Positions 22,372-37,452 of a stretch of DNA of 64,000 bases are shown one piece after another. A model generated the notes under the pieces. The model had not been told where the DNA came from, did no database searches, and was given only the letters and a program-made list of their open reading frames with translations. The stretch covers positions 37,368 to 101,367 of the forward strand of contig CADAOB010000004.1 of assembly GCA_902789445.1 (NCBI GenBank). The letters run 5' to 3'. Position 1 is the first letter of the stretch. Each line of letters opens with the position of its first letter. The position numbers and the translations under genes were made by a program. The stretch comes from an uncultured Bacteroidia bacterium. Lineage in GTDB: Bacteria; Bacteroidota; Bacteroidia; Bacteroidales; UBA932.

Positions 22372-22720
22372 TCATACAAGGAGCAGGACCATCAGATTCC
22401 CTGTCTCCCGCTATCCGGGAGGAAATTCGTTCACGGAAGAAAAGCCATTGATTATCTGAAATAGATTATCCGATTTGGATTATCCAAATTTGGATGTTTA
22501 TGCCCGTCAACCAAGGATTGATGTTTACTTTTGCCAATAAGGTCAACGATTGGAATTATTTCGTCCGTCCCGTGCTGGCGTTCTAATGGCAGTGAGATGA
22601 ATAAGCGGAAGTGCTTACAGGATCTGTCTTCATGGCCTAGGATATAATCTGACTCTTTTATGTCAGGGCCGATACAAATAGGCTGACTACCTACCTGGTC
22701 CTTTGCGCCGCTCTGCCTAC
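22372..22720. other. gene-free stretch
   Basis: Nothing convincing. A 101-codon minus-strand frame (22452-22757) covers it but has no ribosome-binding site, family motif or sensible composition and runs into a palindrome. Confidence 0.5.
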
Positions 22721-22832
22721 CGCGACACAGATGGATGTGCCGTTTCATCTGTGTCACAAAGGGTTTTATTGCTTAAACGGCGGTCTTCGCGCCGCGACAC
22801 AGACGAAAGAGACGACTGGTCTGTGTCGTGGC
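22721..22832. repeat. tandem long hairpins sharing a CGCGACACAGA head
   Basis: Two consecutive hairpins. The first has perfect 10-base arms, GACACAGATG at 22724-22733 and CATCTGTGTC at 22746-22755. The second has 14-base arms with one wobble, 22791-22804 and 22819-22832. Both begin with the same 11 bases, 72 bases apart. Purpose unknown. Confidence 0.65.
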
Positions 22833-22853
22833 AGAGAAAGAATTTGCTGAAAT

Positions 22854-22879
22854 CTTTCTGTTCCGGATGGGACAGAAAG
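22854..22879. repeat. hairpin downstream of the old tRNA terminator
   Basis: CTTTCTGT at 22854-22861 pairs with ACAGAAAG at 22872-22879, and the stem extends to 11 pairs with one G-T wobble around a GGAT loop. It could be a second terminator on the minus strand. Confidence 0.5.
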
Positions 22880-22896
22880 AGCGAAAGAATAAAGAG

Positions 22897-22935
22897 GTAC
22901 AGAAAAAAGAAACCCGCTCAGACTGAGCGGGTTTC
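22897..22935 (-). terminator. stranded tRNA-Phe terminator
   Basis: Perfect 12-base arms (22909-22920 and 22924-22935; GAAACCCGCTCA/TGAGCGGGTTTC) with a 3-base loop. On the minus strand a TCTTTTTTCTG tract follows. This is the classic intrinsic terminator found after tRNA genes, and the 3' end of a tRNA lies immediately upstream of it at 22937-22950. The tRNA itself now starts almost 4 kb away. Confidence 0.88.
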
Positions 22936-22936
22936 A

Positions 22937-22950
22937 GTGGTGCTGGGAAG
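22937..22950 (-). repeat. island end: 14-base copy of the tRNA-Phe 3' end
   Basis: GTGGTGCTGGGAAG here is identical to 26812-26825 inside tRNA-Phe, covering the acceptor 3' strand, the discriminator and part of the T arm. The direct-repeat pair brackets the lower-GC block and is read as the attachment core of an integrated island. Confidence 0.8.
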
Positions 22951-23058
22951 TCCTTTTTTAGGGTTTAACAGAGTTTAATGGAGTACTGTAATTGTTTGAT
23001 ACAGAGCGCAAATAGTCAATTAGAGTTATCTTCGGTATATTAAAATATCAAGGCAATT

Positions 23059-23457
23059 ATGCGTAAAATTGATGTTTTGCACGGCTTCATCGCCACAGAC
23101 CTGGGCGAAACCGAAAGCGACGAAGACCTTCACATCACCATCAGCGGCCATCAGGAGAACGGCGGGCCGATGTACCAGAACATTACGGTCATCTACTTCG
23201 ACACCAAGGAGAAGGCCGATAGGTTCCGCTACTCTCCAGAAGGAATCGGCTTCGATGACCCGTTTGGCGATGGTCAGGACTCCTTTGACCTCACAGCCCT
23301 TGCCGGAGACCCGCACCTTCCTGGATTGATTGCCACCATCCTGAAGAACTACTTCGGATTCCAGGATAACTCAAAGCTCTACGCCCACACCTACTGCGAA
23401 GTCGATTACTTCCGGAAGGATCCTGCCGATGCCCGGCCACAGCAGGTGAAATCCTGA
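23059..23457 (+). CDS. unknown small acidic cytoplasmic protein
   Basis: I do not recognise this 132-aa protein. It has no signal peptide or membrane helix and is acidic. It reads as mixed alpha/beta: HGFIATDLGETESDEDLHIT, then a beta-rich middle with NITVIYFDTKEKADRF, and a C-terminal helix LIATILKNYFGF. ATG start at 23059. It is followed by a hairpin terminator at 23473-23503. It is the first gene inside the tRNA-Phe island and the only one there with GC close to the host. Clean codon structure argues it is a real gene. Confidence 0.6.
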   Translation: MRKIDVLHGFIATDLGETESDEDLHITISGHQENGGPMYQNITVIYFDTKEKADRFRYSPEGIGFDDPFGDGQDSFDLTALAGDPHLPGLIATILKNYFGFQDNSKLYAHTYCEVDYFRKDPADARPQQVKS

Positions 23458-23472
23458 CAGGCAAAAAGAGAA

Positions 23473-23503
23473 AGCATCGACTTCCGGTTAGGAGGCCGAT
23501 GCT
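23473..23503. terminator. bidirectional hairpin terminator between convergent island genes
   Basis: AGCATCGACTTCC pairs with GGAGGCCGATGCT (13 positions, one mismatch, one wobble) around a GGTTA loop. CTTTCTT follows on the plus strand and CTTTTTGC on the minus strand, so it could serve both convergent genes. Confidence 0.7.
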
Positions 23504-23524
23504 CTTTCTTATGATAAATGCCGA

Positions 23525-23848
23525 TTAGTCGCCGTGAACGTAATCACTGAATTCAAAGAACTCAGAGCATAATTCCTCACAATCGACGCCCCATTTCTTT
23601 GCAGTCTTCTCAGCGAATTCGTCCATTTCTTCATCGGAGGGGTTATCATTGTATATCATGGCAGCGCATAATTCTAAGATGCCCTTAGCCATAGATTCTG
23701 AGATAGATGGCTTAACAAAACGCTGATAGCGGACTACTTTTTCTGCATATTGGTCAAATACGACCTTTCTTTTCATCTGGTCGAGTTTATCACTCATGTC
23801 GACGGAAAACATTACTCCGCCATTATCGAGTTTTGTGTATCCTGACAT
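23525..23848 (-). CDS. unknown small acidic protein, second gene of an island operon
   Basis: A 107-aa unknown. MSGYTKLDNGGVMFSVDMSDKL gives way to basic helices (QMKRKVVFDQYAEKVVRYQRF) and an acidic C-terminal helical region rich in Glu and Asp (DEEMDEFAEKTAKKWGV) ending FEFSDYVHGD. No signal peptide. It begins two bases after the stop of the exported unknown upstream, so the two are co-transcribed from the promoter at 24387-24418. Low GC compared with the chromosome. An effector/partner relation with the upstream secreted protein is possible but not shown. Confidence 0.6.
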   Translation of the reverse strand: MSGYTKLDNGGVMFSVDMSDKLDQMKRKVVFDQYAEKVVRYQRFVKPSISESMAKGILELCAAMIYNDNPSDEEMDEFAEKTAKKWGVDCEELCSEFFEFSDYVHGD

Positions 23849-23850
23849 AA

Positions 23851-24366
23851 TTAAAGATTGTTTATGTGCTCCGAAAATGCTTTCTTAATATTAGCTGTGT
23901 CGTAATAATTCACAACAACATGTCCTTCGTCATAGTCACCTATATCTATGGTCTGAACTGTAATAAACCCATTAGATAAGACCCACTCATACATGTCATA
24001 TGCCTTTTTCTTATTAGTGGCATTTGTCTGTTGATGATAGTGATGTGTGGGCTTCCCGTATTTTGCCACCATCAATTCAACAATTATCCTCGCATGGTTA
24101 ATTGAGCCATAGCCCTTACTGGGAGTGCTAATTTCGATATTATGGATAACATCAGAATTGGTGGCTCCTTTGCCATATGGGTTAATAAAATAGTGACATC
24201 CTTCAATTCCTGCATAATTATCGAGTTTGTCGCCGATTTTCTCCTTGAAACTATCACGGCTTTCGCTAAAGGAAACCCCATACAGTTTCATATTTGTCGG
24301 TTTTTGTTGAGCAAAAGAAACGATACTAATCAGAATCAAGGCAAATAATAAGGAATACTTTTTCAT
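23851..24366 (-). CDS. unknown exported protein
   Basis: A 171-aa protein with a clear signal peptide (MKKYSLLFALILISIVSFAQQ), so it is periplasmic or surface-exposed. The mature part starts KPTNMKLYGVSFSESRDSFKEKIGDKL and contains several tyrosine/histidine-rich beta segments (CHYFINPYGKGA, KPTHHYHQQTN, VVVNYYDTANIKKAF). I do not recognise the family. The start is fixed by the signal peptide and by a consensus promoter 20 bases upstream; the frame remains open far beyond but without sense. It is AT-richer than the core genes, consistent with the island. Confidence 0.7.
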   Translation of the reverse strand: MKKYSLLFALILISIVSFAQQKPTNMKLYGVSFSESRDSFKEKIGDKLDNYAGIEGCHYFINPYGKGATNSDVIHNIEISTPSKGYGSINHARIIVELMVAKYGKPTHHYHQQTNATNKKKAYDMYEWVLSNGFITVQTIDIGDYDEGHVVVNYYDTANIKKAFSEHINNL

Positions 24367-24386
24367 CGTGGTTATTGTTTTGCTTA

Positions 24387-24418
24387 CAAAAATAGTGATT
24401 TTCCCACTTATCAACAAA
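24387..24418 (-). promoter_or_regulatory. promoter of the island's two-gene operon
   Basis: Minus-strand TTTG at 24418-24415, 20 bases, then TATTTTTG at 24394-24387, an exact consensus match. It shows that host-type transcription serves the island. Confidence 0.82.
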
Positions 24419-25261
24419 ATCGGACATAGCATTTTTGTTGTTATATGGACCGATGAGATAAGGTTTTCCAGCGGTAGAGCTGCCCAGTCCGATATAGGTA
24501 GTGAACATCCAAAATGGCTTTTCTCTCTCCTGTCCACTCCGTTCACCTCGTACACTTTGACCTTGCCCTGTGGACGTGGAAAGTAGATGCGGCAGCGGTT
24601 TGGCACAAGCATCATATATCTTTGGAGCCATGAACCCACATGACTCCATATTTTTTGCTCCGCCGATAACTGAGGTGCCGGATTACGTCTGGTCCCGCCA
24701 GTACGATAAGCCTTGTTTTGTGCCTGGCAGGCCGATAAAGAACCCCCAAAGACACCAGCCGAAGGATTTTACATCCCGATGCCGAATCGGCCCTGCATGC
24801 CGCAAAGAAAGCCTGCCGCCGGTGCCCGGGTCGATGGTATGGCCGCTCTTCCTCCAAAGCCGATGCTGCCGAATTCCTGGTCTACGAGGGCATCATGGTC
24901 GTGGAGCACCATGTCGTAGGACGATAGAGCCGAAGGAAGGGTTTGGGCCGATAGTTCCCAGCACCGGCGGCAGTGCAGCTCAGGCCGATATAGAAAGCGG
25001 TCATCCGCATCCGGCAGTCCAGCAGAGCTGGCCAGCCCAATGCGGCCAGGACGGCACATATAAAGGAAAAAAGGTATGGGAGACTGTGGCCGGACAAGTC
25101 GTCCACAGACTCCCATCTGGTTTATCCCCCAACCCCCAGGGGAGATAATCGCCCGGGAGGCGGATTACCGGCGCGACCGTCAGTGCGGTGCGAAGGTCCT
25201 TCCTTCGAATCCCCCGTGCGAGGCGGGACATGTCAACTTTATCATTTTCGTTTAAACAAAG
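24419..25261. other. decayed stretch without an intact gene
   Basis: Several overlapping frames of 60-190 codons on both strands are open, but none has a good start, family motif or continuous protein-like sequence. The minus strand shows a hydrophobic run (LFSFICAVLAALGWPALL near 25060) broken by frame changes. The plus strand has a short sensible stretch ending EFLVYEGIMVVEHHVVGR near 24925. I read it as the remains of one or two inactivated genes. Confidence 0.45.
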
Positions 25262-25265
25262 CTCC

Positions 25266-25343
25266 CAAAATCTGCGCTGAACAGGTAAAACCGTTAAATA
25301 AATTTTGCGCTGAGTCGGAATTATTGGGAGATAAATTTTGCGC
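25266..25343 (+). promoter_or_regulatory. three operator-like repeats at exact 33-base spacing
   Basis: ATAAATTTTGCGC occurs at 25298-25310 and again at 25331-25343. A third, diverged copy (AAATCTGCGCTGA) lies at 25268-25280. Their GCGC cores start at 25274, 25307 and 25340, which is 33 bases apart each time, about three helical turns. The last copy contains the TTTG box of the ATPase promoter. Binding by the gene's own product or a regulator is an inference. Confidence 0.65.
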
Positions 25344-25367
25344 AAGCGGAAAAACATGCTATATTTG
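25337..25367 (+). promoter_or_regulatory. promoter of the island ATPase
   Basis: TTTG at 25337-25340, 19 bases, then TATATTTG at 25360-25367. The predicted start lies about 16 bases before the ATG at 25391 and rules out an in-frame GTG at 25367. Confidence 0.85.
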
Positions 25368-25390
25368 TGGCAGTTAAATCGACTGTGATT

Positions 25391-26728
25391 ATGGAAGAAA
25401 GGGTCTTTAAAAGAAAGTTTTATGAGAAGATGCTCGCCTGGAAGCGGGACAAGGACGGAAAAACAGCCTTGCTTATCAAAGGAGCCCGCCGTGTCGGCAA
25501 GTCAACCATTGCAGAGGAATTCGCCAAAAACGAATATGAATCCTATATTTTAGTTGACTTTACCAAGGTCGGTCCGGAGATTCCCGCCCTTTTCGACGAT
25601 GTCTCCGACCTTGACCGTATCTTCATGGCCCTCCAATTCTACTTCAATGTAACGCTTGTTCCACGCAAATCTGTGATTATCCTGGACGAGATTCAGGAGT
25701 GTCCCAAAGCTCGTCAGGCCATCAAAGAACTGGTAGGAGACCACAGATACGATTATATTGAAACCGGCTCCCTGATCAGTATCAAGAAAAAAACGCAGAA
25801 TATCCGAATCCCAAGTGAGGAAACTCGCTTGACGATGTATCCGATGGACTATGAAGAATTCCGCTGGGCACTGGGAGACCAGACAAGTGTTCCTCTTCTA
25901 CAGCAGGCATTTGCGGCCAAGCAGCCGCTCGGTGATGCTGCTCACCGCAAAATCATGCGTGATCTTCGCCTGTATATGCTTGTAGGTGGAATGCCACAGG
26001 CTGTGAATACATATCTTGATACTAATAATCTTTCGCTTGTCGATGGGACGAAACGCGAAATCCTCGAACTATACAATGATGATTTCTACAAAATAGACCC
26101 TACGGGTAAAGCTGCAAGTCTGTTCAAAGCAATACCAGCCCAACTCTATGGGAACGCCCACCGGTATCAGACGACTCCGGTCATCGGGAAAGTCGAGGAC
26201 GATGCCCTGCTTGCCTTGCTGCACGAAATGGAGGAAAGCAAAACGGTAAACATCGCTCACCATGTAGATGACCCCAATGTAGGGCTTCCAATGACAGATA
26301 ACCTCAGCAGTTTCAAGATGTATGTTGGAGACACCGGGCTCTTTGTAACGCTGGCCTTTGCCGACAAAGAGGCGACGGAGAATATCATCTACCAAAAACT
26401 TCTCACCGACAGACTCTCCGCCAACCTGGGTTACGTGTATGAAAACATCATCGCACAGATGCTCACGGCATCAGGCAACAAACTATTCTTCCACACCTTC
26501 CCGGACGATAATAAGCATATCTGCGAAATTGATTTCCTGCTCTCACGCTCCCAGAAGATTTGTCCAATTGAAGTAAAGTCTTCTGGGTATAAAGCACACA
26601 AATCACTGGATCTTTTCTGCGAAAAGTATTCAGACAGAATCCGGGAACGTTACCTTCTTTACACAAAAGACCTCCGAAAAGAGCAGCAAATTATCATGCT
26701 TCCCGTGTATATGACACCAATGTTGTAG
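25391..26728 (+). CDS. AAA-family ATPase with DUF4143 and nuclease-like C terminus
   Basis: A 445-aa protein of the AAA_14/DUF4143 type common in mobile regions of gut Bacteroidota. An AAA domain with Walker A GARRVGKST (31-39) and Walker B SVIILDEIQECPK (about 93-105) is followed by a sensor-like YIETGSLISI. A helical middle contains LYMLVGGMPQAVNTYL. The C-terminal DUF4143 part has the acid...ExK pattern EIDFLL...ICPIEVKSS typical of PD-(D/E)xK nuclease folds. Biological role is unknown; defence or element maintenance is often suggested. Promoter overlaps the 33-base repeats. It is the main cargo of the tRNA-Phe island. Confidence 0.85.
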   Translation: MEERVFKRKFYEKMLAWKRDKDGKTALLIKGARRVGKSTIAEEFAKNEYESYILVDFTKVGPEIPALFDDVSDLDRIFMALQFYFNVTLVPRKSVIILDEIQECPKARQAIKELVGDHRYDYIETGSLISIKKKTQNIRIPSEETRLTMYPMDYEEFRWALGDQTSVPLLQQAFAAKQPLGDAAHRKIMRDLRLYMLVGGMPQAVNTYLDTNNLSLVDGTKREILELYNDDFYKIDPTGKAASLFKAIPAQLYGNAHRYQTTPVIGKVEDDALLALLHEMEESKTVNIAHHVDDPNVGLPMTDNLSSFKMYVGDTGLFVTLAFADKEATENIIYQKLLTDRLSANLGYVYENIIAQMLTASGNKLFFHTFPDDNKHICEIDFLLSRSQKICPIEVKSSGYKAHKSLDLFCEKYSDRIRERYLLYTKDLRKEQQIIMLPVYMTPML

Positions 26729-26738
26729 CCCACAAAAA

Positions 26739-26778
26739 ACGCACAACTTCTTGCCCATTATGCGTAAAAGTTGTGCGT
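26739..26778. repeat. inverted repeat with internal direct repeats at the island edge
   Basis: Perfect 11-base arms ACGCACAACTT (26739-26749) and AAGTTGTGCGT (26768-26778). Inside and after it TGCGTAAA occurs twice (26761 and 26774). It lies between the ATPase stop and tRNA-Phe, so it is either the ATPase terminator or a set of recombinase arm sites. Confidence 0.55.
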
Positions 26779-26809
26779 AAATTTGTAACTAACTGATTAT
26801 CAGCGTAGT

Positions 26810-26885
26810 TGGTGGTGCTGGGAAGAATCGAACTGCCGACACATGGATTTTCAGTCCATTGCTCTACCATCTGAGCTACAGCACC
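26810..26885 (-). tRNA. tRNA-Phe (GAA)
   Basis: A 76-base cloverleaf including an encoded CCA. Acceptor GGTGCTG pairs with CAGCACC, the D arm is GCTC...GAGC, and the anticodon stem ATGGA/TCCAT carries CTGAAAA (anticodon GAA). The T loop is TTCGATT. The T stem GGCAG/CTTCC has one C-T mismatch. That mismatch lies in the 14-base segment shared with the far end of the island, so the 3' end may have been rewritten by integration. The usual terminator is no longer adjacent; it lies at 22897-22935. Confidence 0.93.
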
Positions 26886-26897
26886 GGATTGGGACTG

Positions 26898-26927
26898 CAA
26901 AGGTAAGGTTTTTTTTCTTTCTGCAAA
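26898..26927 (-). promoter_or_regulatory. tRNA-Phe promoter
   Basis: Minus-strand TTTG at 26927-26924, 18 bases, then TACCTTTG at 26905-26898. The start is predicted a few bases upstream of the mature tRNA. Confidence 0.8.
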
Positions 26928-26969
26928 AAAATAATGTTATTTTCGCAGTAGAAATTTGATTCTGACGCA

Positions 26970-29015
26970 ATGGCTATGGCGGTGGAGAAGAGATATGTCG
27001 AGGTGCTGCTGCCTCTGAAACTGAGAAAGACGCTGACTTACAGGCTGGACGGCGAAATCGTGCCGGGCAGTTGGGTGCAGGTGCCCCTGCGCGGGCATCC
27101 TGCGCTCGGTATCGTGGAGCGGGTGCACGAGAGCGCACCCGCCGGAGTCCGCCTCTCGGCGATCGAGGCGGTGACCGCCGTATTGGACAAGCCGGCCGTT
27201 TCGTCCGATGAGCTGGCTTTCTGGCATACCATCGCCGATTACTATCTCTGTACGCCCGGCGAAGTGTTCAAGGCCGCCTATAATGCCGGCCTGCAGCGCC
27301 AGATGCTCCAGCCCGACAAGCTCAAAAAAACAAAGACTGCCCGGCGGGAGCGCAAAACCCCGGAAGCGGCCGGGGCGTCCGGATACCCGCTCAATCCCCT
27401 GTCCGAAAGCCAACAAGCCGCACTCGCACAAGTCCGTCAGGGCTTTGCCGCCGGCAAACCGGTGCTGCTGCACGGGGCCACCGGCAGCGGCAAGACCGAA
27501 CTTTATCTCCAGCTGGCCGCCGAGCAACTGGCCGCCGGCCGGGACGTACTCTATCTCGTACCGGAAATCGCCATTTCCAAACAACTGCAGCAGCGCATCG
27601 AAGCCGTTTTCGGCGACCGGCTCCTGGTATTCCACTCCCGGACCACCGTGCCGCAGCGCTACAAAGTCATCGAAACGCTCCGGCATGATCCGTCACCCCG
27701 CATCGTGCTGGGCACCCGCTCAGCCGTCTTCCTCCCCCTACGCCAGACGGGACTGGTCATCATCGACGAGGAGCACGACCGCTCCTACAAACAGGATGAT
27801 ACCGCTCCGCGCTACAACGGCCGCGATGCTGCCCTGATGCTGGCCGCCCAACGGCATGCATCCGTCATCCTGGGCAGCGCAACGCCTTCCTGCGAGGCGC
27901 TCTTCAATGTGGAAACCAAGAAATTCGCCCTGGCCCGCCTGCCGGAGCGCTACCACGGCGGCGCAGACCCGAAGATCGAGATCATCGACACGGCCAAGGC
28001 CCGGCGGCTGGGCAACATGCAGGGTTCCTTCTCCCGGAAACTCCTCAAGGAGATGGCCGCGACGCTGGAAGGCGGGAAACAGGTGCTGGTCTTCCGTTCG
28101 CGCCGCGCCTATGCGCCGACGGTCCAGTGCGAAGCCTGCGGCGAAGTGGTGATGTGCCCGCACTGTCATGTGGCCCTGAGCTACCACAAGTTCAACAGCA
28201 GTCTGTCCTGCCACTACTGCGGCTATCACAGGCCCTACACGCTGCGCTGCCCCTCCTGCTCAGAAGTGGCGCTGGCCGAGCGGGGTGCCGGTACGGAACG
28301 CCTCGAAGAAGAACTGCGGGAAGCTTTTCCCGACAAACGCATCGAACGCTTCGACGCCGATACGACCGAGCGCAAGACCGCTGCCGACCGGCTGATCCGC
28401 GACTTTGCCGCCGGGAACATCGACATCCTGGTCGGGACGCAGATGATCACCAAAGGTTTTGACTTCGAACGCCTGGCCCTGGTGGTCCTGGTCAGTGCGG
28501 ACAGCCTTTTCGCCGTCCAGGACTTCCGCAGCGACGAACGGGCCTTCCAGCTGCTGACCCAGCTGATGGGCCGCTCGGGCCGGCGGGGCGAGCAGGGGCG
28601 GATCGTCATCCAGACCTTCCAGCCGGAGCATCCGGTGCTGCAGCGGCTGTTGCAGGGCGGCACGCAGGCCGATGCCGGTACGACAGCCCTGCTGGCCGAA
28701 CGCAAGGCTTTCCAGTATCCGCCCTACGTGCGGATGATTTCCCTCACTGTGAAAGACCACTACGAAGGCCGTCTCTGGAATGTATGCCGGCTCATCCAGG
28801 AAGCCGCCCAGGCGGTCGGCATCGCAGAAATGGCCGGTCCAGTCACCCCGGCGGTCGATGTCGTAGCCGGAGAGCATATCGCCCAGTTCTGGATCAAGCT
28901 GCCCCGTACCCGCAACCTGGCGGCCACCAAACGCGCCCTGTACGCGCGGATTGACCAGATCGATCAGGATTTCCGGGGCCAGACCGCCATCGTCATCGAC
29001 GTAGATCCCATGTAG
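26970..29015 (+). CDS. priA: primosomal replication-restart helicase PriA
   Basis: Replication-fork restart helicase (681 aa, somewhat short against the usual 730-830). An N-terminal DNA-binding domain (KRYVEVLLPLKLRKTLTYRL) is followed by Walker A GATGSGKT (169-176) and DEEH (266-269). The zinc-binding cysteine ladder (CEACGEVVMCPHCH...CHYCG...CPSC, about 390-430) sits between the two helicase lobes, with QLMGRSGRRG in the second. The shortening seems to be in the linker after the N-terminal domain. Only six bases separate its stop from the next ATG, so the TerB cassette downstream is probably co-transcribed with it. A TATTTTCG box at 26938-26945 may be its promoter. Confidence 0.94.
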   Translation: MAMAVEKRYVEVLLPLKLRKTLTYRLDGEIVPGSWVQVPLRGHPALGIVERVHESAPAGVRLSAIEAVTAVLDKPAVSSDELAFWHTIADYYLCTPGEVFKAAYNAGLQRQMLQPDKLKKTKTARRERKTPEAAGASGYPLNPLSESQQAALAQVRQGFAAGKPVLLHGATGSGKTELYLQLAAEQLAAGRDVLYLVPEIAISKQLQQRIEAVFGDRLLVFHSRTTVPQRYKVIETLRHDPSPRIVLGTRSAVFLPLRQTGLVIIDEEHDRSYKQDDTAPRYNGRDAALMLAAQRHASVILGSATPSCEALFNVETKKFALARLPERYHGGADPKIEIIDTAKARRLGNMQGSFSRKLLKEMAATLEGGKQVLVFRSRRAYAPTVQCEACGEVVMCPHCHVALSYHKFNSSLSCHYCGYHRPYTLRCPSCSEVALAERGAGTERLEEELREAFPDKRIERFDADTTERKTAADRLIRDFAAGNIDILVGTQMITKGFDFERLALVVLVSADSLFAVQDFRSDERAFQLLTQLMGRSGRRGEQGRIVIQTFQPEHPVLQRLLQGGTQADAGTTALLAERKAFQYPPYVRMISLTVKDHYEGRLWNVCRLIQEAAQAVGIAEMAGPVTPAVDVVAGEHIAQFWIKLPRTRNLAATKRALYARIDQIDQDFRGQTAIVIDVDPM

Positions 29016-29021
29016 CCGGCC

Positions 29022-30500
29022 ATGAACCTGCAGGAACTCATCCAATATGTCAAGGAAAAGAGCGGCTACACGCTCATCCTGGGTTCGCAGTTGCCCCCGG
29101 CGGCGCCTGTCTATCAGGACACGCCCATCTCGCCGGCGGGAACGCTGTCCGGGCCGGATGATCCCGCAGTCCCCGCCCGCATCCGGGAGATGCTGGCCCT
29201 GTACGATTATGGCGACGGCTCGAACGCCCAGCGCGTGCTGAATTTCTACCGGCAGGGCAAATTCATGGAGCATTACGAAGATGACGCGCCCTGGGAGGGG
29301 GAATTCAAACGCTACTTCCCGACTTACCACGACCTCAACATCCGGCAACTGCGCGGCTATTTTACCTGGCGGACCCAGTACAGGAAAGGCAATCTGCTGC
29401 CGGTGGCCACTTCCCTGGCCTATCTGTATGTCTATGAGCTGCTCAACGGCATCGGGACCGAATCGGCGGAAGACGGCTTGCAGAAGCTGGAAGCCTTCGA
29501 ACACGACTACATCGACCACGGTCCCGGAAACCCGGCGATGAAGCGGAACCTCCACCGCTGGATGTTGGAGTTTGCGGTGCTGGGCGGGCTCCCGGCTGAA
29601 CGGTTCACCGCCTATCTGAATCCTGAAAAGATCCAGTTCGACCAGGCGCTTTCCACCCTGCAGAAAGCCGCAGACTGCCCGGACGAAGCCGTGGTACAAG
29701 CACTCCGGCTGCTCGCCGGCAAAAAAGACACGGGCCCGGCCGACCCGCAGTTCCAGCACCTGCTGGCCGGAACCTGGCGGCTTGCGGCAGACAAACTATT
29801 CCCGGCCTGCTTCGGCCAGGCGAAACCCTATGTCTGGCATCCGCTCTACAATGCGGTCTATTACAAGGAAAAAGAAGAACCCGACAGAAGCGTTTCCGTC
29901 AACGACTGCCGGATGTTCTACTGCCGCGACGGCATCTGGCACGAACTGCGGCATGAAAGGCTGTTCTTTGACCTGCAGCGCCTGGGGGCCTTCCTCCACC
30001 GGACGGAATGCAGCCTGCGCCGCTATCTCAAGACCGGACATTACCTGAAAGAGAAGCCGGAAGAAGCCTGGGCACTGCCCTATGTCGATGCCGTGATTGC
30101 CGCAGACAGGCGGGAGAAGGAAGAGGCCGCGCGCCCGAAGATCGACATCCATCTGGAGCGGCTGGATCACATCCGGGAGGATGCCGCAGCGACCAGGGAG
30201 AGCCTGCTGACGGCAGAAGAGATCGACGAGATTCCCGGTCAAGCCGGGAATGACGGGGAACCGGCCGGAAGTATTGAAGGGCTCAACGGGCAGCTGGCGG
30301 ACGTCCTGCTGATGCTGCTGCGGGGGCAGTCGCCCGAAAGCTTGCTGCGGGAGCGGCACCTGATGCCGTCGGTCGTAGCCGACAGCCTCAACGAAGCCTT
30401 CTTCGACGAGATCGGCGACAATGTGGTCGAATGTGACGGAGGAACGCTCAGCCTGGTGGAAGACTATCGGGAAGATATCAAACAACTGCTTGAAATATAA
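29022..30500 (+). CDS. TerB-N/TerB-C domain protein
   Basis: A 492-aa protein whose segment at about 75-165 carries the TerB-N pattern: FYRQGKFMEHYEDD, RYFPTYHDLNIRQLRGYFTW and SLAYLYVYELLNGIG. The C-terminal third, with KIDIHLERLDHIREDAAATR and an acidic end, matches TerB-C. The classical TerB domain between them is not evident. Such proteins are known from proposed Ter-linked DNA-processing operons together with an ATPase and a helicase, as here. The acidic residues suggest metal or nucleic-acid contacts. Residues about 404-411 (IPGQAGND) come from a palindromic repeat inserted in frame. It begins six bases after priA and ends five bases before the ATPase gene. Confidence 0.82.
   Translation: MNLQELIQYVKEKSGYTLILGSQLPPAAPVYQDTPISPAGTLSGPDDPAVPARIREMLALYDYGDGSNAQRVLNFYRQGKFMEHYEDDAPWEGEFKRYFPTYHDLNIRQLRGYFTWRTQYRKGNLLPVATSLAYLYVYELLNGIGTESAEDGLQKLEAFEHDYIDHGPGNPAMKRNLHRWMLEFAVLGGLPAERFTAYLNPEKIQFDQALSTLQKAADCPDEAVVQALRLLAGKKDTGPADPQFQHLLAGTWRLAADKLFPACFGQAKPYVWHPLYNAVYYKEKEEPDRSVSVNDCRMFYCRDGIWHELRHERLFFDLQRLGAFLHRTECSLRRYLKTGHYLKEKPEEAWALPYVDAVIAADRREKEEAARPKIDIHLERLDHIREDAAATRESLLTAEEIDEIPGQAGNDGEPAGSIEGLNGQLADVLLMLLRGQSPESLLRERHLMPSVVADSLNEAFFDEIGDNVVECDGGTLSLVEDYREDIKQLLEI
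30231..30251. repeat. palindromic repeat inside the TerB-N/TerB-C gene
   Basis: ATTCCCGG and CCGGGAAT (8-base arms, TCAAG loop) encode the low-complexity peptide IPGQAGND. The sequence resembles dispersed palindromic elements seen in many bacterial genomes. It sits between two well-conserved domains, where an in-frame insertion is tolerable. Confidence 0.6.
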
Positions 30501-30505
30501 ATCGC

Positions 30506-31837
30506 ATGAACGAAGATACACGAAAGGTTCCCAGACGGATTGCACAGACGGTGCTCGGCTCGCTCAAAGGCGGCGTCGTACCGCGCATCGGTCTCCCCTA
30601 CATCACGGTCGGCCGGAAAAACGAAATCGAGGCCCTGCTCCACGACGTGGAAATCATCGCCGAGGGCGGCGCCTCATTCCGCTTCATCGTCGGCCGTTAC
30701 GGTTCTGGCAAGAGCTTTCTCCTGCAGACCATCCGCAACTATGTCATGGACCGCGGTTTCATCGTGGCCGACGCCGACCTTTCGCCGGAGCGCCGGCTGC
30801 AGGGCACCCGCGGGCAGGGACTGGCCACCTACCGGGAGCTGATCGGCAACCTGGCCACGAAAACCAGGCCCGAAGGCGGTGCGCTGAGCCTCATCCTGGA
30901 CCGCTGGATCAACAACGTGCAGTCGGAGGCCGTACAGGAGACGGGGCTGACGCCCGGCGATCCGGCCTTGACGGCCGCCGTGGACAAGAAGATCTACGCC
31001 GTGACCGCATCCCTCCGCGAACTGGTGCACGGATTCGAATTCGCCCGGCTGGTTTCGATCTACTACCATGCCTATCTGGCAGGCGACGACGAGACCAAGG
31101 CCAAGGTCATCCGCTGGTTCCGCGCCGAATACAATCTCAAGAAAGAAGCAAAGGAAGAACTGGGCGTCAACCTCGTCATCACCGACGACGACTGGTACGA
31201 ATACCTGAAGCTCTTCGCCACCTTCTTCCGGCTGGCCGGCTATGCCGGGATGATGGTCATGATCGACGAACTGGTGAACATCTACAAGATACCCAACGCC
31301 ATCACACGGCAGTACAACTACGAAAAGATGCTCACCATGTACAACGACACGCTGCAGGGCAAGGCCAAATACCTGGGCTTCATCATGGGCGCCACGCCAC
31401 AGGCCCTGGAGGACAAACGCCGGGGCATCTACAGCTACGAAGCGCTCCGCTCGCGCCTGGCGGAAGGCAAATTCTCCCGGCCGGGCGCCCGCGACCTCCT
31501 GTCGCCCGTCATCCGGCTGGAGCCACTCACGCCCGAGGAGATGCTGGTCCTGTGCGAAAAACTCGCCGATATGCACGCGGGGCTGTACAACTACCCGCGC
31601 CGCGTCGTCACCGACGATCTGGCCGTTTTCATCAAGATCGAATACGGCCGCATCGGCGCCGACCAGAACATCACCCCGCGCGAGGTCATCCGCGACTTCA
31701 TCGAACTGCTCGACCTGCTTTACCAGAATCCTTCGCTGGAGCCGGTCACCCTCCTGCAGTCCGACCAGTTCAGCTATGCCCAGTCGGAGGCCGTGTCGGA
31801 CCAGGCCGACGAAGGGTTTGTGGAATTCACCATCTGA
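30506..31837 (+). CDS. BrxD-like (DUF2791) P-loop ATPase
   Basis: A 443-aa AAA-type ATPase resembling the DUF2791 family that includes BREX BrxD. Walker A GRYGSGKS (63-70) follows the VGRKNEIEALLHDVEII entry helix. Walker B is MMVMIDELVNI (about 249-259), and GATPQALEDKRRGIYSYEALRSRL is a sensor/arginine region typical of the family. It is usually found next to an Lhr-like helicase, which is the next gene here. It probably loads or powers the helicase on DNA. No PglX, PglZ or BrxC homologue is in the window, so this is not a complete BREX locus. Spacing to both neighbours is 5 and 12 bases. Confidence 0.85.
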   Translation: MNEDTRKVPRRIAQTVLGSLKGGVVPRIGLPYITVGRKNEIEALLHDVEIIAEGGASFRFIVGRYGSGKSFLLQTIRNYVMDRGFIVADADLSPERRLQGTRGQGLATYRELIGNLATKTRPEGGALSLILDRWINNVQSEAVQETGLTPGDPALTAAVDKKIYAVTASLRELVHGFEFARLVSIYYHAYLAGDDETKAKVIRWFRAEYNLKKEAKEELGVNLVITDDDWYEYLKLFATFFRLAGYAGMMVMIDELVNIYKIPNAITRQYNYEKMLTMYNDTLQGKAKYLGFIMGATPQALEDKRRGIYSYEALRSRLAEGKFSRPGARDLLSPVIRLEPLTPEEMLVLCEKLADMHAGLYNYPRRVVTDDLAVFIKIEYGRIGADQNITPREVIRDFIELLDLLYQNPSLEPVTLLQSDQFSYAQSEAVSDQADEGFVEFTI

Positions 31838-31849
31838 CAGGGTTGCACC

Positions 31850-34087
31850 ATGAATGTTTTCGGACGATATGCTCCTTTCATCCAGGACTTCATCTACCGC
31901 TCGGGCTGGAAGACGCTCCGCGGCGTGCAGAATGCGGCCGGCGATGCCATTTTCGGCACGGAGGACAATGTGCTGCTGACCGCATCCACGGCATCCGGCA
32001 AGACGGAGGCTGCCTTCTTCCCGATCCTGACCCTGCTGGATGAGAATCCGTCACAGACCGTCGGCGTACTCTACATAGCGCCGCTCAAGGCGCTGATAAA
32101 CGACCAGTTCGGCCGCCTCGACGAATTGTGCCAGGAAGTCGGCATTCCCGTCACCCGCTGGCACGGCGACGTGCCGCAGACGCAGAAGCGGCGGCTGCTC
32201 CGCAAGCCCGCCGGGATCCTGCAGATCACGCCCGAATCGCTGGAATCGCTGCTGATCAACAAGCACATGGAGATTCCTTCGCTCTTCGGCGACCTGCGCT
32301 TTGTCGTCATCGACGAGATCCATTCGCTGCTGCGCGGCGACCGGGGCCTGCAGACCTTCTGCCTGATCGAGCGGCTCTGCCGGATTGCCAGCTGCAAGCC
32401 GCGGCGCATCGGCCTGTCGGCCACCCTCGGCAATCCCGAGGCGGCCGGCGCGTTTCTGGCAGCAGGCAGCGGCCGGGGGACCATCATTCCGAAATTTGAC
32501 GGCGGCAAGGAAGTCTGGCGCCTGTCGATGGAGCATTTCTACAACAGCGGTCCGCAGGCCGACGACAAGCGCGAGCCTGCCACCGAAGCGCTGGAGGTGG
32601 AAGCCCCCACCGACACCGCGCCGACGGCCGCCGATCCGGGCATCGGCTATATCTTCGAGCATACGCGGGGCAAGAAATGCCTGATATTCACCAATTCCCG
32701 TGAAGAATGCGAGTCGGTCTGCCAGCATCTGCGCCAATACTGCGAGGTGCAGCACGAACCCGACCGCTTCCTCATCCACCACGGCAATCTCTCGGCTTCC
32801 TACCGTGAGAGCGCGGAAGAAGACATGAAGGACGACGACTCGCTGATGTCGGTCTGCGCCACCGCCACCCTGGAGCTGGGCATCGACATCGGGCGGCTGG
32901 AGCGGGCTTTCCACATCGATGCGCCCTTCACCGTGTCGGGATTCCTGCAGCGGCTGGGCCGCACGGGCCGGCGCGGCGCTCCTTCCGAGATGTGGTTCGT
33001 CATGCGCGAAGAGCATCCCGAAGCGCGGGCGATGCTGCCCGACATGATTCCCTGGTACCTGATCCAGGGCATCGCGCTGGTGCAACTCTATATCGAAGAA
33101 CGCTTCGTGGAGCCGCCGCGTACGGAGCGGCTGCCCTTCAGCCTGCTTTACCACCAGACGATGAGCACGCTGGCCTCCTGCGGCGAAATGACGCCGGCGG
33201 AACTGGCCTCGCGGGTCCTTCCCCTCTCCTGCTTCCACCGCATCACGCAGGATGACTACCGTGTGCTGCTGCGTCATCTGCTGGAAAAAGGGCATCTCCA
33301 ACGGACGGAAAACGGCGGCCTGATCGTCGGGCTGACCGGCGAGCGGATCGTGAACAACTTCAAGTTCTACGCTGTTTTCCAAGAGAATGTCGAATACACC
33401 GTCCGCGCAGGTTCCGAGCAGCTGGGCACCATCGTCAAACCACCGCCAGTAGGCGACAAAATCGCCATTGCCGGCCGGGTGTGGGTCGTGGAGGAGGTGG
33501 ACCACCAGCGCCACGAAGTCTATTGCACACTGGTCAAAGGCCTGATTCCGGCCTACTTCGGCGATGTGGCCGGCGACATCCATACGCGCATCCTGGAGCG
33601 GATGTACCGCGTGCTGGCCGAAGCGCAGACCTATCCTTATCTGATGCGCCACGCCGTCAGCCGCCTGCAGGAAGCGCGGGAGACTTTCCAGAAGTCCGGG
33701 ATGCAGAACCAGCCGCTCGTCCATCTGGGCGGCAAGATGTGGGCGCTCTTCCCCTGGCTGGGCACCTATGCCTTCATCACGCTGGAGCGCTTCCTGAAGA
33801 TCCGCTGTGCAAAACGGCTGGGGCTCAAGGGGCTAAGCCCTTCACGCCCCTACTGGATGCAGTTCACGATGCAGGTCGGCGAAGCTGATTTCTACCGGAT
33901 TGTCGCCGAAGAGGCCGTCCGGCCGTTCGACCCGCTGGAACTGGTCTATCCGAACGAGAACCCCGTCTTCGAAAAATATGACGAATTCGTCCCGGAGGAA
34001 CTCGTCCGCAAAGGCTTCGCCCTTGGCGTCCTCGATTTCGAGTCCGTCAAGAAGCGCGTCCTGGGCTGGCATCAAGCCGGCTGCTAA
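31850..34087 (+). CDS. Lhr-like superfamily 2 (DEAD/DEAH) helicase
   Basis: A 745-aa superfamily-2 helicase: Walker A TASTASGKTEAAF (45-57), IAPLKALINDQ (motif Ia), ITPESLESLL, Walker B VVIDEIHSL, SAT motif GLSATLGN. The second RecA lobe has ATATLELGIDIG and LQRLGRTGRRG. A long C-terminal extension (about 430-745) with beta-rich and winged-helix-like parts resembles the Lhr-core. This matches the helicase (BrxHI-like) that accompanies BrxD-type ATPases. It is the last gene of the priA-TerB-ATPase-helicase run. The sequence beyond its stop contains fossil gene ends, consistent with insertion here. Confidence 0.88.
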   Translation: MNVFGRYAPFIQDFIYRSGWKTLRGVQNAAGDAIFGTEDNVLLTASTASGKTEAAFFPILTLLDENPSQTVGVLYIAPLKALINDQFGRLDELCQEVGIPVTRWHGDVPQTQKRRLLRKPAGILQITPESLESLLINKHMEIPSLFGDLRFVVIDEIHSLLRGDRGLQTFCLIERLCRIASCKPRRIGLSATLGNPEAAGAFLAAGSGRGTIIPKFDGGKEVWRLSMEHFYNSGPQADDKREPATEALEVEAPTDTAPTAADPGIGYIFEHTRGKKCLIFTNSREECESVCQHLRQYCEVQHEPDRFLIHHGNLSASYRESAEEDMKDDDSLMSVCATATLELGIDIGRLERAFHIDAPFTVSGFLQRLGRTGRRGAPSEMWFVMREEHPEARAMLPDMIPWYLIQGIALVQLYIEERFVEPPRTERLPFSLLYHQTMSTLASCGEMTPAELASRVLPLSCFHRITQDDYRVLLRHLLEKGHLQRTENGGLIVGLTGERIVNNFKFYAVFQENVEYTVRAGSEQLGTIVKPPPVGDKIAIAGRVWVVEEVDHQRHEVYCTLVKGLIPAYFGDVAGDIHTRILERMYRVLAEAQTYPYLMRHAVSRLQEARETFQKSGMQNQPLVHLGGKMWALFPWLGTYAFITLERFLKIRCAKRLGLKGLSPSRPYWMQFTMQVGEADFYRIVAEEAVRPFDPLELVYPNENPVFEKYDEFVPEELVRKGFALGVLDFESVKKRVLGWHQAGC

Positions 34088-34131
34088 CGGCGGAAGTTGC
34101 GCGAAGCGAAAGGCAGGCTTACCTCTATTAC
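34084..34131 (-). pseudogene. fossil of an esterase C terminus
   Basis: On the minus strand this reads VIEVSLPFASRNFRR then stop. The intact esterase 2.4 kb away ends LRLSLPFASRNFSR then stop. Nine consecutive residues agree, but nothing upstream continues the gene. It looks like the leftover end of a second copy, possibly truncated when the helicase cassette arrived. Confidence 0.5.
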
Positions 34132-34443
34132 GGTTTATTTTACCTTTTTCCCAGCCGGAAAGAAAAACCCACCCGCCACCTCATCCTGGTCAATGGCCTC
34201 CTCTGGACAGCCATCGGCACGAAGATCACGCTTACGGGAATCCAATGCTACGCAAAGATGGAACACATCCCTTGGTGGTACTTCCTCCTGTCCGCGATGG
34301 TCTCCGCCGGCGTCTTTATGATCCTCAAGCCCGGCAAAAAAAACAGGCTGGTTGTTGCAACGAAAAAATTCTTAATTTTATTAGGAGATATCTTATCTTT
34401 TATCTACCTTTGCAGACAGATGTTTCACCGCAGTAATGAATAA
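34114..34443 (+). pseudogene. 5'-truncated small membrane protein
   Basis: The plus-strand frame reads QAYLYYGLFYLFPSRKEK, then a helix around LILVNGLLWTAIGTKITL and a second helix WYFLLSAMVSAGVFMIL followed by KPGKK. It looks like two membrane helices and a positive tail of a real protein, but no start codon or ribosome-binding site precedes the first segment. The tail past about 34350 runs into the blaI promoter and is not credible. Most likely a gene that lost its front. The gap between the helicase and blaI holds nothing else. Confidence 0.5.
34405..34412 (+). promoter_or_regulatory. blaI promoter box
   Basis: TACCTTTG, 23 bases before the blaI ATG. No close TTTG partner. In BlaI-type systems an operator would overlap this region, but I see no strong dyad. 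Confidence 0.6.
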
Positions 34444-34810
34444 ATTAATGAAACAGCGACTCACAGCGAAAGAAGAGGCCCTGATGAACATCTTCTGGGA
34501 GAAAGGAGACCTCTGCATCCGGGACCTGGTGGAAAGCCTGCCGGAACCCAGACCGAACTACAAGACCGTCGCTACGCAAGTCGGCTTTCTGGAGGACAAG
34601 GGCTTCCTTCGTCGCCGGCCCGTGGCCAACACCTTCATCTACGAAGTAGCCATCTCTGAAAAGGAATACCGGGGCACGGCCATCGGGGACGTGGTCTCGC
34701 GCTACTACCACAACTCGTATGCAAGCCTGGTCTCCCAGTTCGTCGAGGACAGGAAACTCGGCCTGGACGAACTCAAGGCACTGATCAAACAAATTGAAAA
34801 CCAGAAATAA
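34436..34810 (+). CDS. BlaI/MecI-type transcriptional repressor
   Basis: A 124-aa winged-helix repressor: TAKEEALMNIFWEKGDLCIRDLVESL is the DNA-binding start and NYKTVATQVGFLEDKGFLRR the recognition helix. The C-terminal dimerisation part contains the family's AISEKEYRGTAIGDVVSRYY. Its partner sensor-protease gene follows after eight bases. In the known mechanism the protease triggers BlaI cleavage and derepression of the operon. Target genes beyond the pair are unknown. Start at 34436; a second ATG lies 12 bases further on. Confidence 0.92.
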   Translation: MNKLMKQRLTAKEEALMNIFWEKGDLCIRDLVESLPEPRPNYKTVATQVGFLEDKGFLRRRPVANTFIYEVAISEKEYRGTAIGDVVSRYYHNSYASLVSQFVEDRKLGLDELKALIKQIENQK

Positions 34811-34818
34811 GCTGCACA

Positions 34819-36501
34819 ATGACCGCCTTGCTCATCTATACTGGAAAAGTGGCGCTGCTGCTGGCAGCCTTTTACCTGTTCTACAAATGGCTGCTCAGCC
34901 GCGAGACCTTTCACCGGTTAAACCGGCGGATCCTGACCGCTTCGCTGCTGCTCGCCGCGCTGCTCCCGCTGGTCGTGGTGACCCTCCACCGGACAGTCGA
35001 AATCCAGGAAAATACACCCTCCCTCACGGAAAAGGCCGCTACTGAGGCAGCCGGTGCAGTTCTCGCAGCAGACGTCGTCACAGATGGGCAACAGAGTCTG
35101 CTCCACACGCTGAACTGGCCGGCAATCCTCTTCGCCATCTACGCGTCCGGAGTCCTGACAATGCTCTTCCATACTCTCCTATCCATTTTCCGGATCAGGC
35201 GTCTGATCCGTCAAGGCGAACTGCACCGCGACACGGACGGAACACCCGTCATCGTGACCGGGAAAGACTTCGCACCGTTCAGTTGGATGCACTGGATCGT
35301 TCTCTCCCGGGAAGATTACCAGGAAGCCAGCCCCTTCGTGCTGGCACACGAAAAAGCACATCTGAGATTCGGGCATTCCCGCGAGGTGCTGCTGGTCGAA
35401 CTTTTCTGCACGATGCAGTGGTTCAATCCGGCGGCTTGGCTGCTGAAACGCGAATTGCGCGCCATCCACGAATACGAGGCGGACGACGCCGCACTCAGCG
35501 GTGGAGCAAACGTGAAGGCCTACCAATATTCCTTGATAAAAAAAGCTGTTGGCATGAGCGGCTACTCTATTACCAACAGCTTCCATCACAGTACTTTAAA
35601 AAACCGTATTACCATGATGTCAAAGTCAAAATCTCCTCTGCAGAGAGGGCTTAGAGCCCTTTATCTGCTGCCGTTGGCGTTCTGCTTTCTCGCAGCCACC
35701 GCCCAAACGGTCACCGACTACAAAAGTAGTGAAAAAACTTCATTTTACGGAATCGACGTTCCGCACTCCGCGGTCCCTGTCGAAAAACAGACAGAGCCCG
35801 TTTTCTTCAAGATGGTGAAGGGCGATGCCGTCGCCGATACGCTCTTTCTTTACATGAGGGTTTTCGCGACGGAAGAACTCGACGGTCTCTACGCCTACGG
35901 TCCCATCTGGAAGGACGACCTGCCTGCCGTGCTGAAAGGTTCCTACCACACCGTAGTCCTCGACGCGGAAGCTTCTTGCAGGATGGGATTCGTGGATGAC
36001 GTCAAGCAACGCATCCGTGAAGCCGACCTCCGCAAGATCCGGTACACCTGCCCGGATGCCGGCACCCGGGATGCGGTGCATCGCATGCTCCCTCCCACGG
36101 AAAAAAATGCGAAGATTGCCGGACAGGAAAGTGCCAGCGAAATGAGCGTCAGGAAAAATGACTACTACCTGCTGCAGATCAACAGCCGGGGAGACTTCCG
36201 GCTGGCCGGGAAAACGATTGCAGCCGATGCGCTGGAAGAAGCCGTCACGTCAATCATCCGCCAGAACGCCGCATATACGATCGGCCTGCAAACCGACCGT
36301 GCAACACCCTTCGGCAGCTTCATCGCAGCAGAGTCCGCTGTCACACGCAGCGTCAACCGATTGCGGGACACCTACGCGCAGGAACACTTCGGTATCCCCT
36401 ACGACATAGACCGCCTCTCGGAAGAACAGGTAAAGGAATGCCAGAGGGCCATTCCCCTGCGTCTGAATGAGGTCTCGAACGGCGTAGTCAAGACACGCTG
36501 A
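34819..36501 (+). CDS. BlaR1-like M56 metalloprotease with ExbD-like tail
   Basis: Membrane sensor-protease (560 aa). Four hydrophobic segments lie at about 5-25, 38-56, 100-125 and 280-296. The gluzincin site HEKAH (187-191) lies between the third and fourth, and HEYEADDAAL (217-226) supplies the third zinc ligand. After the last helix a periplasmic part ends in an ExbD/TolR-like domain (about 440-545, DYYLLQINSRGDFRLAGKTI and YTIGLQTDRATPF). It pairs with the BlaI-type gene upstream. The signal sensed is unknown; no beta-lactamase lies next to it. Confidence 0.88.
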   Translation: MTALLIYTGKVALLLAAFYLFYKWLLSRETFHRLNRRILTASLLLAALLPLVVVTLHRTVEIQENTPSLTEKAATEAAGAVLAADVVTDGQQSLLHTLNWPAILFAIYASGVLTMLFHTLLSIFRIRRLIRQGELHRDTDGTPVIVTGKDFAPFSWMHWIVLSREDYQEASPFVLAHEKAHLRFGHSREVLLVELFCTMQWFNPAAWLLKRELRAIHEYEADDAALSGGANVKAYQYSLIKKAVGMSGYSITNSFHHSTLKNRITMMSKSKSPLQRGLRALYLLPLAFCFLAATAQTVTDYKSSEKTSFYGIDVPHSAVPVEKQTEPVFFKMVKGDAVADTLFLYMRVFATEELDGLYAYGPIWKDDLPAVLKGSYHTVVLDAEASCRMGFVDDVKQRIREADLRKIRYTCPDAGTRDAVHRMLPPTEKNAKIAGQESASEMSVRKNDYYLLQINSRGDFRLAGKTIAADALEEAVTSIIRQNAAYTIGLQTDRATPFGSFIAAESAVTRSVNRLRDTYAQEHFGIPYDIDRLSEEQVKECQRAIPLRLNEVSNGVVKTR

Positions 36502-36517: not shown

Positions 36518-36563
36518 CAACTTCAGCCGCTGACACGCTTCCAGCCGTCAGCGGCTGAAGTTG
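36518..36563. terminator. 17-base perfect inverted repeat between convergent genes
   Basis: Arms at 36518-36534 and 36547-36563 (CAACTTCAGCCGCTGAC and its reverse complement) with a 12-base loop. The right arm encodes the last codons and stop of the esterase. It separates the BlaR1-like gene from the convergent esterase. No U-tract follows, so it may slow rather than terminate transcription. Confidence 0.6.
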
Positions 36564-37408
36564 CGGGAGGCGAAAGGAAGGGAGAGGCGCAGGGCGGTAT
36601 GCCAGTATTCCCAGTTGTGGATCCCGTTGCGGACACGGAGTTCACAGGGAATGCCTTTCGCACGCATCTTGAAGTAGAAATCGACGTTGAGCCGCAGCAG
36701 ATAGTCGTCGTCGCCGCAATCGACGAACCATTTGACGCCTTTGAGCGCCGCCACCGTCGCATCATCGGCTTCGTCCACGAATTTCAGGGCGGAATGGTCG
36801 CGGACCGAAACACTGGTCAGGTAGAACTTGTCTTCCCGATCCTTCGGATCCTCCGGTTCCTTCACCTGCTGATCGAGCCAGGCACTCATGGCATAGCAGC
36901 TGGAGAACATGTCCGGATGACGCTGGGCATAGACCACGCTGCCGCCGCCGCCCATCGACAGGCCGGAGATGGCGCGCATCCCCTTCGAGCCGCCGCAACG
37001 ATACTTCGCTTCGAAGGCAGGCATCAGTTCGCCGAAGAAGAAATCCTCATAAGGAGTGCCCGGCACGTTGAAGTAGCCGTTCTGGACGGCATGGATGTCC
37101 GGGTCGCCGGCGCAGGGCATGATGACCACCATCTTCGCAGCTTCGCCGGTTCCGATGAGTTCGTCCAGGACCAGGTCCAGGCCGCCGGTCTCGACCCAGT
37201 TCAGGTGGGTGCCATAGAGACCGTGCAGCAGATAGAGCACGGGATAGGTCGTCGCCGCCAGCTCGCCGTAGCCGTCGGGGAGATAGACGTTGACACTGAC
37301 ATTTCGTCCGAGCACCTCACTGGGGAAGGACTCGGTCACGACACGGCTGCGAGCGAACAAAACGCCGGCACTCAGCAACAGGCAAATAGCAAGAATAATA
37401 CGTTTCAT
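36548..37408 (-). CDS. secreted alpha/beta-hydrolase esterase
   Basis: A 286-aa exported esterase of the esterase-D/feruloyl-esterase-like type. The signal peptide is MKRIILAICLLLSAGVLFA. Then come VNVYLPDGY, YPVLYLLHGLYGTHLNW (oxyanion region), the nucleophile elbow GLSMGGG and the catalytic His in NGIHNWEYW. The Asp lies in DCGDDDY. Substrate is unknown; carbohydrate-linked acyl esters are common for relatives in gut Bacteroidota. I start at 37408 because of the signal peptide. A fossil with the same C-terminal sequence lies at 34084-34131. Confidence 0.85.
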   Translation of the reverse strand: MKRIILAICLLLSAGVLFARSRVVTESFPSEVLGRNVSVNVYLPDGYGELAATTYPVLYLLHGLYGTHLNWVETGGLDLVLDELIGTGEAAKMVVIMPCAGDPDIHAVQNGYFNVPGTPYEDFFFGELMPAFEAKYRCGGSKGMRAISGLSMGGGGSVVYAQRHPDMFSSCYAMSAWLDQQVKEPEDPKDREDKFYLTSVSVRDHSALKFVDEADDATVAALKGVKWFVDCGDDDYLLRLNVDFYFKMRAKGIPCELRVRNGIHNWEYWHTALRLSLPFASRNFSR

Positions 37409-37452
37409 GATTAACAAGCGGTTACGAAAATGCAAGAATGAAAGAGGTTATT

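Follow-up and report, generated by a model that had tools for sequence, protein, structure and literature searches.

Ter-linked DNA-processing operons have been proposed by comparative genomics, and a three-gene locus that shares their make-up, a TerB-N/TerB-C protein with an ATPase and a helicase, is present in the 64,000-nucleotide (nt) stretch of contig CADAOB010000004.1 (GCA_902789445.1) analysed here (the window, to which all coordinates refer unless a locus label stands before them). Such a trio already bears the name of an anti-phage system, Shango. In Pseudomonas aeruginosa PA14, according to the Shango passages of PMC10250203, the system consists of a TerB-like protein, an ATPase and a DEAD/DEAH helicase; it lowers the plating of many phages modestly (10-100-fold) and strongly protects liquid cultures. 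The same passages cite a report on Shango in E. coli. Among other described systems, BREX (bacteriophage exclusion) contains BrxD and BrxHI, homologues of the ATPase and the helicase, and Hachiman (HamAB) is likewise a helicase-based anti-phage complex, possibly with a similar sensing logic. A search of the literature by title, whose coverage did not extend to the E. coli report, found no mechanism study of Shango. The original prediction, made from the DNA letters, had called the system poorly described, but it is named and has a published anti-phage assay.

The three genes are almost certainly a complete copy of Shango, arranged in the order sngA-sngB-sngC (Table 1). As originally described, they are consecutive open reading frames (ORFs) on the plus strand, separated by 5 and 12 bases. 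The number of proteins, the gene order and the tight spacing are those of Shango, as is the combination of a TerB-type protein, a BrxD-like ATPase and a superfamily 2 (SF2) helicase. All three PADLOC Shango models matched, and the Pfam profiles PF13208, PF15615 and PF10923, which the original prediction had named for a check, scored above their cut-offs. The trio was assigned to Shango and not to BREX because the Shango models scored far above the BREX models: on the same proteins PADLOC gave 158.9 bits for BrxD (gene 2) and 418.7 bits for BrxHI (gene 3), against 619 and 925 bits for SngB and SngC. The system itself is not new; it is an ordinary Shango with a clade-typical, TerB-less SngA at an unusual site, directly behind priA, and a candidate "new system" is thereby filed under its right name.

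To place the trio among its relatives, genome contigs were searched with SngB, and of 114 relatives the best 80 were kept (L006-L085, 76-87% identical); these loci, labelled as several phyla, are the near clade of Shango and not the whole of it. In the 80 loci, sngB is preceded by a SngA match 76 times and followed by a SngC match equally often. Three of the eight misses stop at a contig edge (L084, L085, L049), two have only 1-1.7 kb left (L054, L074), and three have enough space for the gene, yet lack a match (to SngA in L066 and L072, to SngC in L039). The A-B gap is at most 30 nt in 57 of 76 pairs and above 300 nt in 8; for B-C the figures are 57 of 76 and 4. The homology of genes 2 and 3 to BrxD and BrxHI, together with a first, non-significant place of BrxC in the Foldseek search with SngB, could also be explained by a degraded BREX locus, in which a brxD-brxHI remnant lies beside an unrelated TerB protein. 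We consider this hardly credible: besides the higher Shango scores and the conserved trio, SngB reached only 158 bits with the NCBIfam BrxD model (far below its cut-off of 350), and PglZ had no match anywhere in the own genome (84% complete) in a genome-wide search that covered neither PglX nor BrxC. The TerB-type protein is a further difference between the window system and BREX. The original reading of the trio as a compact, stand-alone, defence-type cassette outside BREX was right.

Table 1. Features of the Shango locus and its surroundings in the window
Feature	Position	Strand	Description
priA	26970..29015	+	host gene directly upstream; NCBIfam TIGR00595 512 bits (cut-off 230)
sngA	29022..30500	+	492 amino acids (aa), TerB_N + TerB_C; PADLOC SngA 224.9 bits (residues 30-490); model pLDDT (predicted local distance difference test) 87.8
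TerB_N match in SngA	29211..29573	+	residues 64-184; Pfam PF13208 81.2 bits (cut-off 25)
TerB_C match in SngA	30099..30482	+	residues 360-487; Pfam PF15615 71.6 bits (cut-off 26.3)
dispersed palindromic repeat copy	30234..30254	+	in frame inside sngA, near the disordered variable linker
sngB	30506..31837	+	443 aa, BrxC/BrxD-family ATPase; PADLOC SngB 619.4 bits; Pfam BrxC_BrxD PF10923 554.7 bits (cut-off 22.2)
Walker A GRYGSGKS of SngB	30692..30715	+	G68, K69, S70 invariant in 25 sequences
Walker B MMVMIDEL of SngB	31250..31273	+	D254, E255 invariant in 25 sequences
sngC	31850..34087	+	745 aa, SF2 helicase; PADLOC SngC 925.4 bits; Pfam DEAD 101.5 bits, Helicase_C 67 bits (both above curated cut-offs)
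Walker A TASGKT of SngC	31988..32005	+	invariant in 25 sequences
esterase 3'-end remnant	34088..34117	+	30 nt, flush after sngC; right edge of the Shango insertion
blaI/blaR1-like pair	34436..36501	+	between sngC and esterase; Pfam Penicillinase_R, Peptidase_M56
esterase	36548..37435	-	directly after priA in G052; Pfam Esterase 101 bits

The window SngA differs from Pseudomonadota and haloarchaeal forms in one domain. TerB (PF05099) is listed for Shango in the relevant part of PMC10952713, and Pfam found no match to it in the window SngA. The original prediction had taken the missing middle domain for the mark of a minimal variant; the domain is indeed missing, but this is the rule in its clade, as PF05099 was found in none of 48 gut-type SngA (the window and 47 of the 80 loci, scanned at expect values (E) up to 0.1). 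It was also absent from both Paenibacillus SngA. In contrast, PF05099 matched all five Pseudomonadota or haloarchaeal SngA (Pantoea, Mesorhizobium, Sulfitobacter, Azospirillum and Halocatena), four of them above the cut-off and that of Halocatena with 24.3 bits against a cut-off of 24.4. Because the PADLOC SngA model still matched 48 of 48 gut-type SngA, the absence of TerB is treated as a clade trait within Shango and not as an exclusion; if PF05099 is taken as obligatory, the system should be called "Shango-like". A hidden, diverged TerB middle domain was rejected, since the SngA model leaves only about 50 residues between the end of the beta sheet at residue 310 and the start of TerB_C at residue 360. 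If this copy works, the TerB domain is dispensable for Shango.

The AlphaFold model of SngA, built with 48 sequences, begins with the helical TerB_N part, followed by a small beta sheet that ends at residue 310, further helices up to about residue 400, a disordered linker and a winged-helix-like end. The linker, residues 405-416, has a pLDDT under 50 and is variable. Residues 423-489 look like a winged helix by the order of helices and strands; Foldseek gave only non-significant matches to LysR-type regulators (E about 3). The core of SngA contains 28 columns that are invariant in the 48 sequences.

Judging from related genomes, the trio was acquired and inserted between priA and an esterase gene, because SngB is missing from all 39 other genomes of the same genus and one relative has an empty priA/esterase site. 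SngB was thus found in 1 of 40 same-genus genomes, its own, against a strong PriA match in 35 of 40 (39 of 40 at E up to 0.001, four of these being weak helicase matches). Within the family, 4 of 149 genomes, the own included, encode SngB-type proteins. In the other three (L136, L137 and L138) these belong to a distant SngB/SngC pair that is only 37-40% and 31-35% identical, respectively. In the relative G052 (L121), the priA ORF ends at 7260 and the convergent esterase ORF at 7286, leaving the two 25 nt apart; other relatives carry other genes behind priA, so that this is a variable place. At the right edge of the insertion in the window, the esterase remnant is 87% identical to 36552-36581 in the real esterase 2.5 kb further on and 90% identical to L121 7290-7319 in G052 (alignment score 44; the best of 1000 shuffles scored 25). 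The blaI/blaR1-like pair that separates sngC from the esterase sits at another place in relatives, with a similar stretch upstream of the pair, and is probably a second, separate insertion. An accessory block at 19339-26969, upstream of priA, holds a DUF5131 gene, a flavin mononucleotide (FMN) reductase and a DUF4143 ATPase, none with a match beside priA in G052; the DUF4143 ATPase (25367-26728) has a guanine-plus-cytosine (GC) content of 47% and is the PADLOC candidate PDC-S01. priA therefore has insertions on both sides.

The position of the trio raises the alternative of a replication-restart or DNA-repair operon, formed together with priA and serving housekeeping rather than defence. The priA stop codon lies 6 nt before the sngA start on the same strand, and elsewhere sngA follows about 17 nt behind pyrG (in one lineage) or 3 nt behind holA (in one locus; both genes were named by eye). 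However, an operon of this kind is very unlikely in view of the genus counts and the empty site in G052; moreover, PriA was matched in none of the 80 other loci, many of which are short, and the neighbours change from locus to locus. An assembly or binning artefact, by which a Bacillota Shango contig was joined to this genome, is even more improbable. The genome consists of 78 contigs, is 84% complete and 3.4% contaminated, and 57 of the 81 rows in the SngB tree (the window, 78 of the 80 loci and two distant rows) are labelled Bacillota. Against this, both ends of the trio abut host genes, with the esterase remnant at the right edge, and, with up to 2 mismatches allowed, the repeat inside sngA was found 33 times in the own genome (reversed control, 0). 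In the tree, the window SngB clusters with four rows labelled Bacteroidota (Bacteroidales) with a support of 98/96; the phylum labels are the submitters' own, and more than one label change in the tree is no proof of transfer. At 60-63%, the GC content of the trio differs little from the 64% of priA; across 62 loci it follows that of the flanks (r 0.91, the trio on average 0.038 higher), and the trio genes therefore look adapted to their hosts.

The predicted ATPase motifs of SngB and helicase motifs of SngC are intact. In alignments of 25 sequences each (the window and 24 of the 80 loci), the Walker motifs that the original prediction had seen in SngB kept their key residues throughout (Table 1), and in SngC T47-A48-S49-G50-K51-T52, D155, E156, H158, S190-A191-T192, Q367, R368, G370 and R371 were invariant in 25 of 25. 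The SF2 motifs announced for gene 3 were confirmed in this way, but not its Lhr-type tail: the best solved relatives of SngC, 5v9x and 7lhl (both "ATP-dependent DNA helicase"), which we take to be Lhr proteins, align with it only in the helicase core (residues 32-375). For SngB, whose model is of low confidence (pLDDT 67, 25 close sequences), the fold search gave no significant match; BrxC (E 0.019) and ORC/Cdc6 (origin recognition complex; E 0.027) were the best non-significant neighbours. Pfam recognised no nuclease domain in SngA, SngB or SngC. In the helicase grouping given in PMC12278908, SngC stands with BrxHI, DruE and DpdJ in a "potentially distinct" clade of immune functions, while HamB of Hachiman is near the Ski2 helicases.

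SngA is the least conserved of the three proteins. Across 58 complete trios, taken from 57 of the 80 loci and from the window, median pairwise identity was 44% for SngA, 82% for SngB and 81% for SngC, a comparison that may be biased because the loci were picked by SngB similarity; among seven distant systems, the window included (21 pairs), the medians were 22%, 52% and 40%, and SngA again was the least conserved. As synonymous sites were saturated in 998 (SngA), 676 (SngB) and 780 (SngC) of 1653 pairs, only close pairs could be used for the ratio of nonsynonymous to synonymous substitution rates (dN/dS). In the 34 pairs whose SngB dS was below 0.8, which are not independent of one another, the median ratio was 0.165 (SngA), 0.047 (SngB) and 0.076 (SngC). 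The dN/dS of SngA is thus about 2-3.5 times that of its partners, suggestive of specificity, and the faster evolution of SngA suggests that it is the recognition subunit. The three genes also give correlated distances (Spearman 0.53-0.70, a level that none of 500 permutations reached), so that they mostly travel together.

Taking identity and mechanism together, we lean towards a complete Shango system in which SngA serves recognition and SngB and SngC form the motor. As to how it might act, we tentatively suggest that SngA recognises, SngB loads, and SngC translocates and blocks phage DNA. SngA would sense or bind phage DNA that is entering or replicating, or else a phage protein sitting on it, and recruit SngB, the BrxC/BrxD-family ATPase; SngB would load or switch on SngC, and SngC would unwind or strip the phage DNA, by which replication or packaging would be stopped. 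Because Pfam recognised no nuclease domain in the trio, the block may consist of translocation and remodelling rather than cutting. The ORC/Cdc6 likeness of SngB is the weakest evidence for a loading role.

Several points weigh against this reading. The only pointer to DNA binding by SngA is its winged-helix-like tail, and none of 350,542 chains in Foldseek was a solved relative of SngA at E up to 0.001. The rapid change of SngA, for which the close pairs are not independent witnesses, could alternatively reflect weak constraint. Furthermore, some of the phages tested with Pseudomonas Shango were not blocked, according to the same passages of PMC10250203, and defence genes are not enriched beside the trio in related loci (see below). 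A different mode of action is possible, if rather doubtful: Shango could be abortive or toxin-like, with SngA as an effector that SngB and SngC release upon sensing phage DNA. Hachiman, as presented in the relevant part of PMC12278908, pairs helicase sensing with a partner effector in this manner, and the conserved core of SngA would fit such a role. However, Pfam recognised no nuclease or other toxin domain in SngA, a solved relative was not found, and the trio differs from Hachiman in that no HamA-type nuclease was recognised.

Since only 6 nt separate the two genes, transcription of the trio by read-through from priA is plausible, and the trio may be expressed in this way. The motif TANNTTTG, presumably the Bacteroidota-type -7 promoter motif, is found on the plus strand at 26778 (185 nt ahead of priA) and not again until 34405, ahead of blaI. 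The lack of plus-strand sites from 26785 to 34405 favours read-through but is weak evidence, since about 1.7 would be expected there from the density in the window (14 plus-strand sites in 64 kb). The full two-part promoter motif, seen 9 times in the window where 0.3 would be expected, is missing from the plus strand before priA, which speaks against read-through. Taken together, the empty site in the relative and the possible read-through from priA offer a natural comparison.

Among 63 other loci with enough upstream sequence, six have a same-strand ORF within 30 nt upstream of the trio; in 32 the same-strand gap is 102-789 nt, and 25 have a neighbour on the opposite strand. Of the six, four belong to one lineage and lie behind pyrG; the other two are L023 and a locus behind holA. 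Use of housekeeping promoters is possible in the loci close behind pyrG or holA. Shango stands close behind pyrG in L041, L047, L054, L056 and L059 (one lineage) and behind holA in L062, as behind priA here; within the same lineage, pyrG is placed otherwise in L057 and L063.

The original prediction had also proposed to test the trio for enrichment near defence genes. We compared 112 of the 148 nearest flanking ORFs from 48 related loci with 112 of 140 distant ORFs; long ORFs and some others were set aside manually. At 1e-30, PADLOC found 5 families among the near ORFs, each in 1 of 112, and 22 families among the far ORFs, each in at most 2 of 112. Enrichment was not supported: defence genes were, if anything, rarer near the trio than far from it. 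Pfam at 1e-8 recognised 103 families in the 112 near ORFs, none in more than 2; the first 25 of the 103 are metabolic, transport and translation types, and the flanking genes vary from locus to locus. In some loci, genes lie inside the Shango operon itself. In L006 (3783-6813), sngB and sngC are separated by genes for two methyltransferases and one type II restriction enzyme; L059 (12563-15583) has a type IIG enzyme at the same place, and L041 (8915-10000) the candidate PDC-S26 between sngA and sngB. By eye, L056 and L057 contain similar ORFs. Other inserts do not look like defence genes, such as that of L014, where an ORF resembles histidinol dehydrogenase by eye.

A broader picture can be drawn, which we regard as speculative and rather unlikely as a whole. 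The TerB-less gut branch of Shango, with its several phylum labels, would move as a bare three-gene unit, sometimes flush behind replication or nucleotide genes such as priA, pyrG or holA and using their promoters. SngB and SngC would form a nearly unchanging motor, on which SngA would be the fast-evolving and perhaps exchangeable subunit for recognition. If this were true, the priA-linked Shango would be made in step with replication forks and might act there.

Carriage by a phage or provirus was rejected, as no match was found in the phage collection and no viral-contig stretch fitted the search patterns. An E. coli plasmid (L148) shows a broken reading frame without a listed gene where sngA is expected, upstream of 4462, while its ATPase and helicase genes are annotated. 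In the plasmid collection, 691 plasmid records contain a SngB relative of under 60% identity (by SngB match alone), among them 449 of Klebsiella and 144 of Salmonella, and 542 of the 691 are typed as conjugative.

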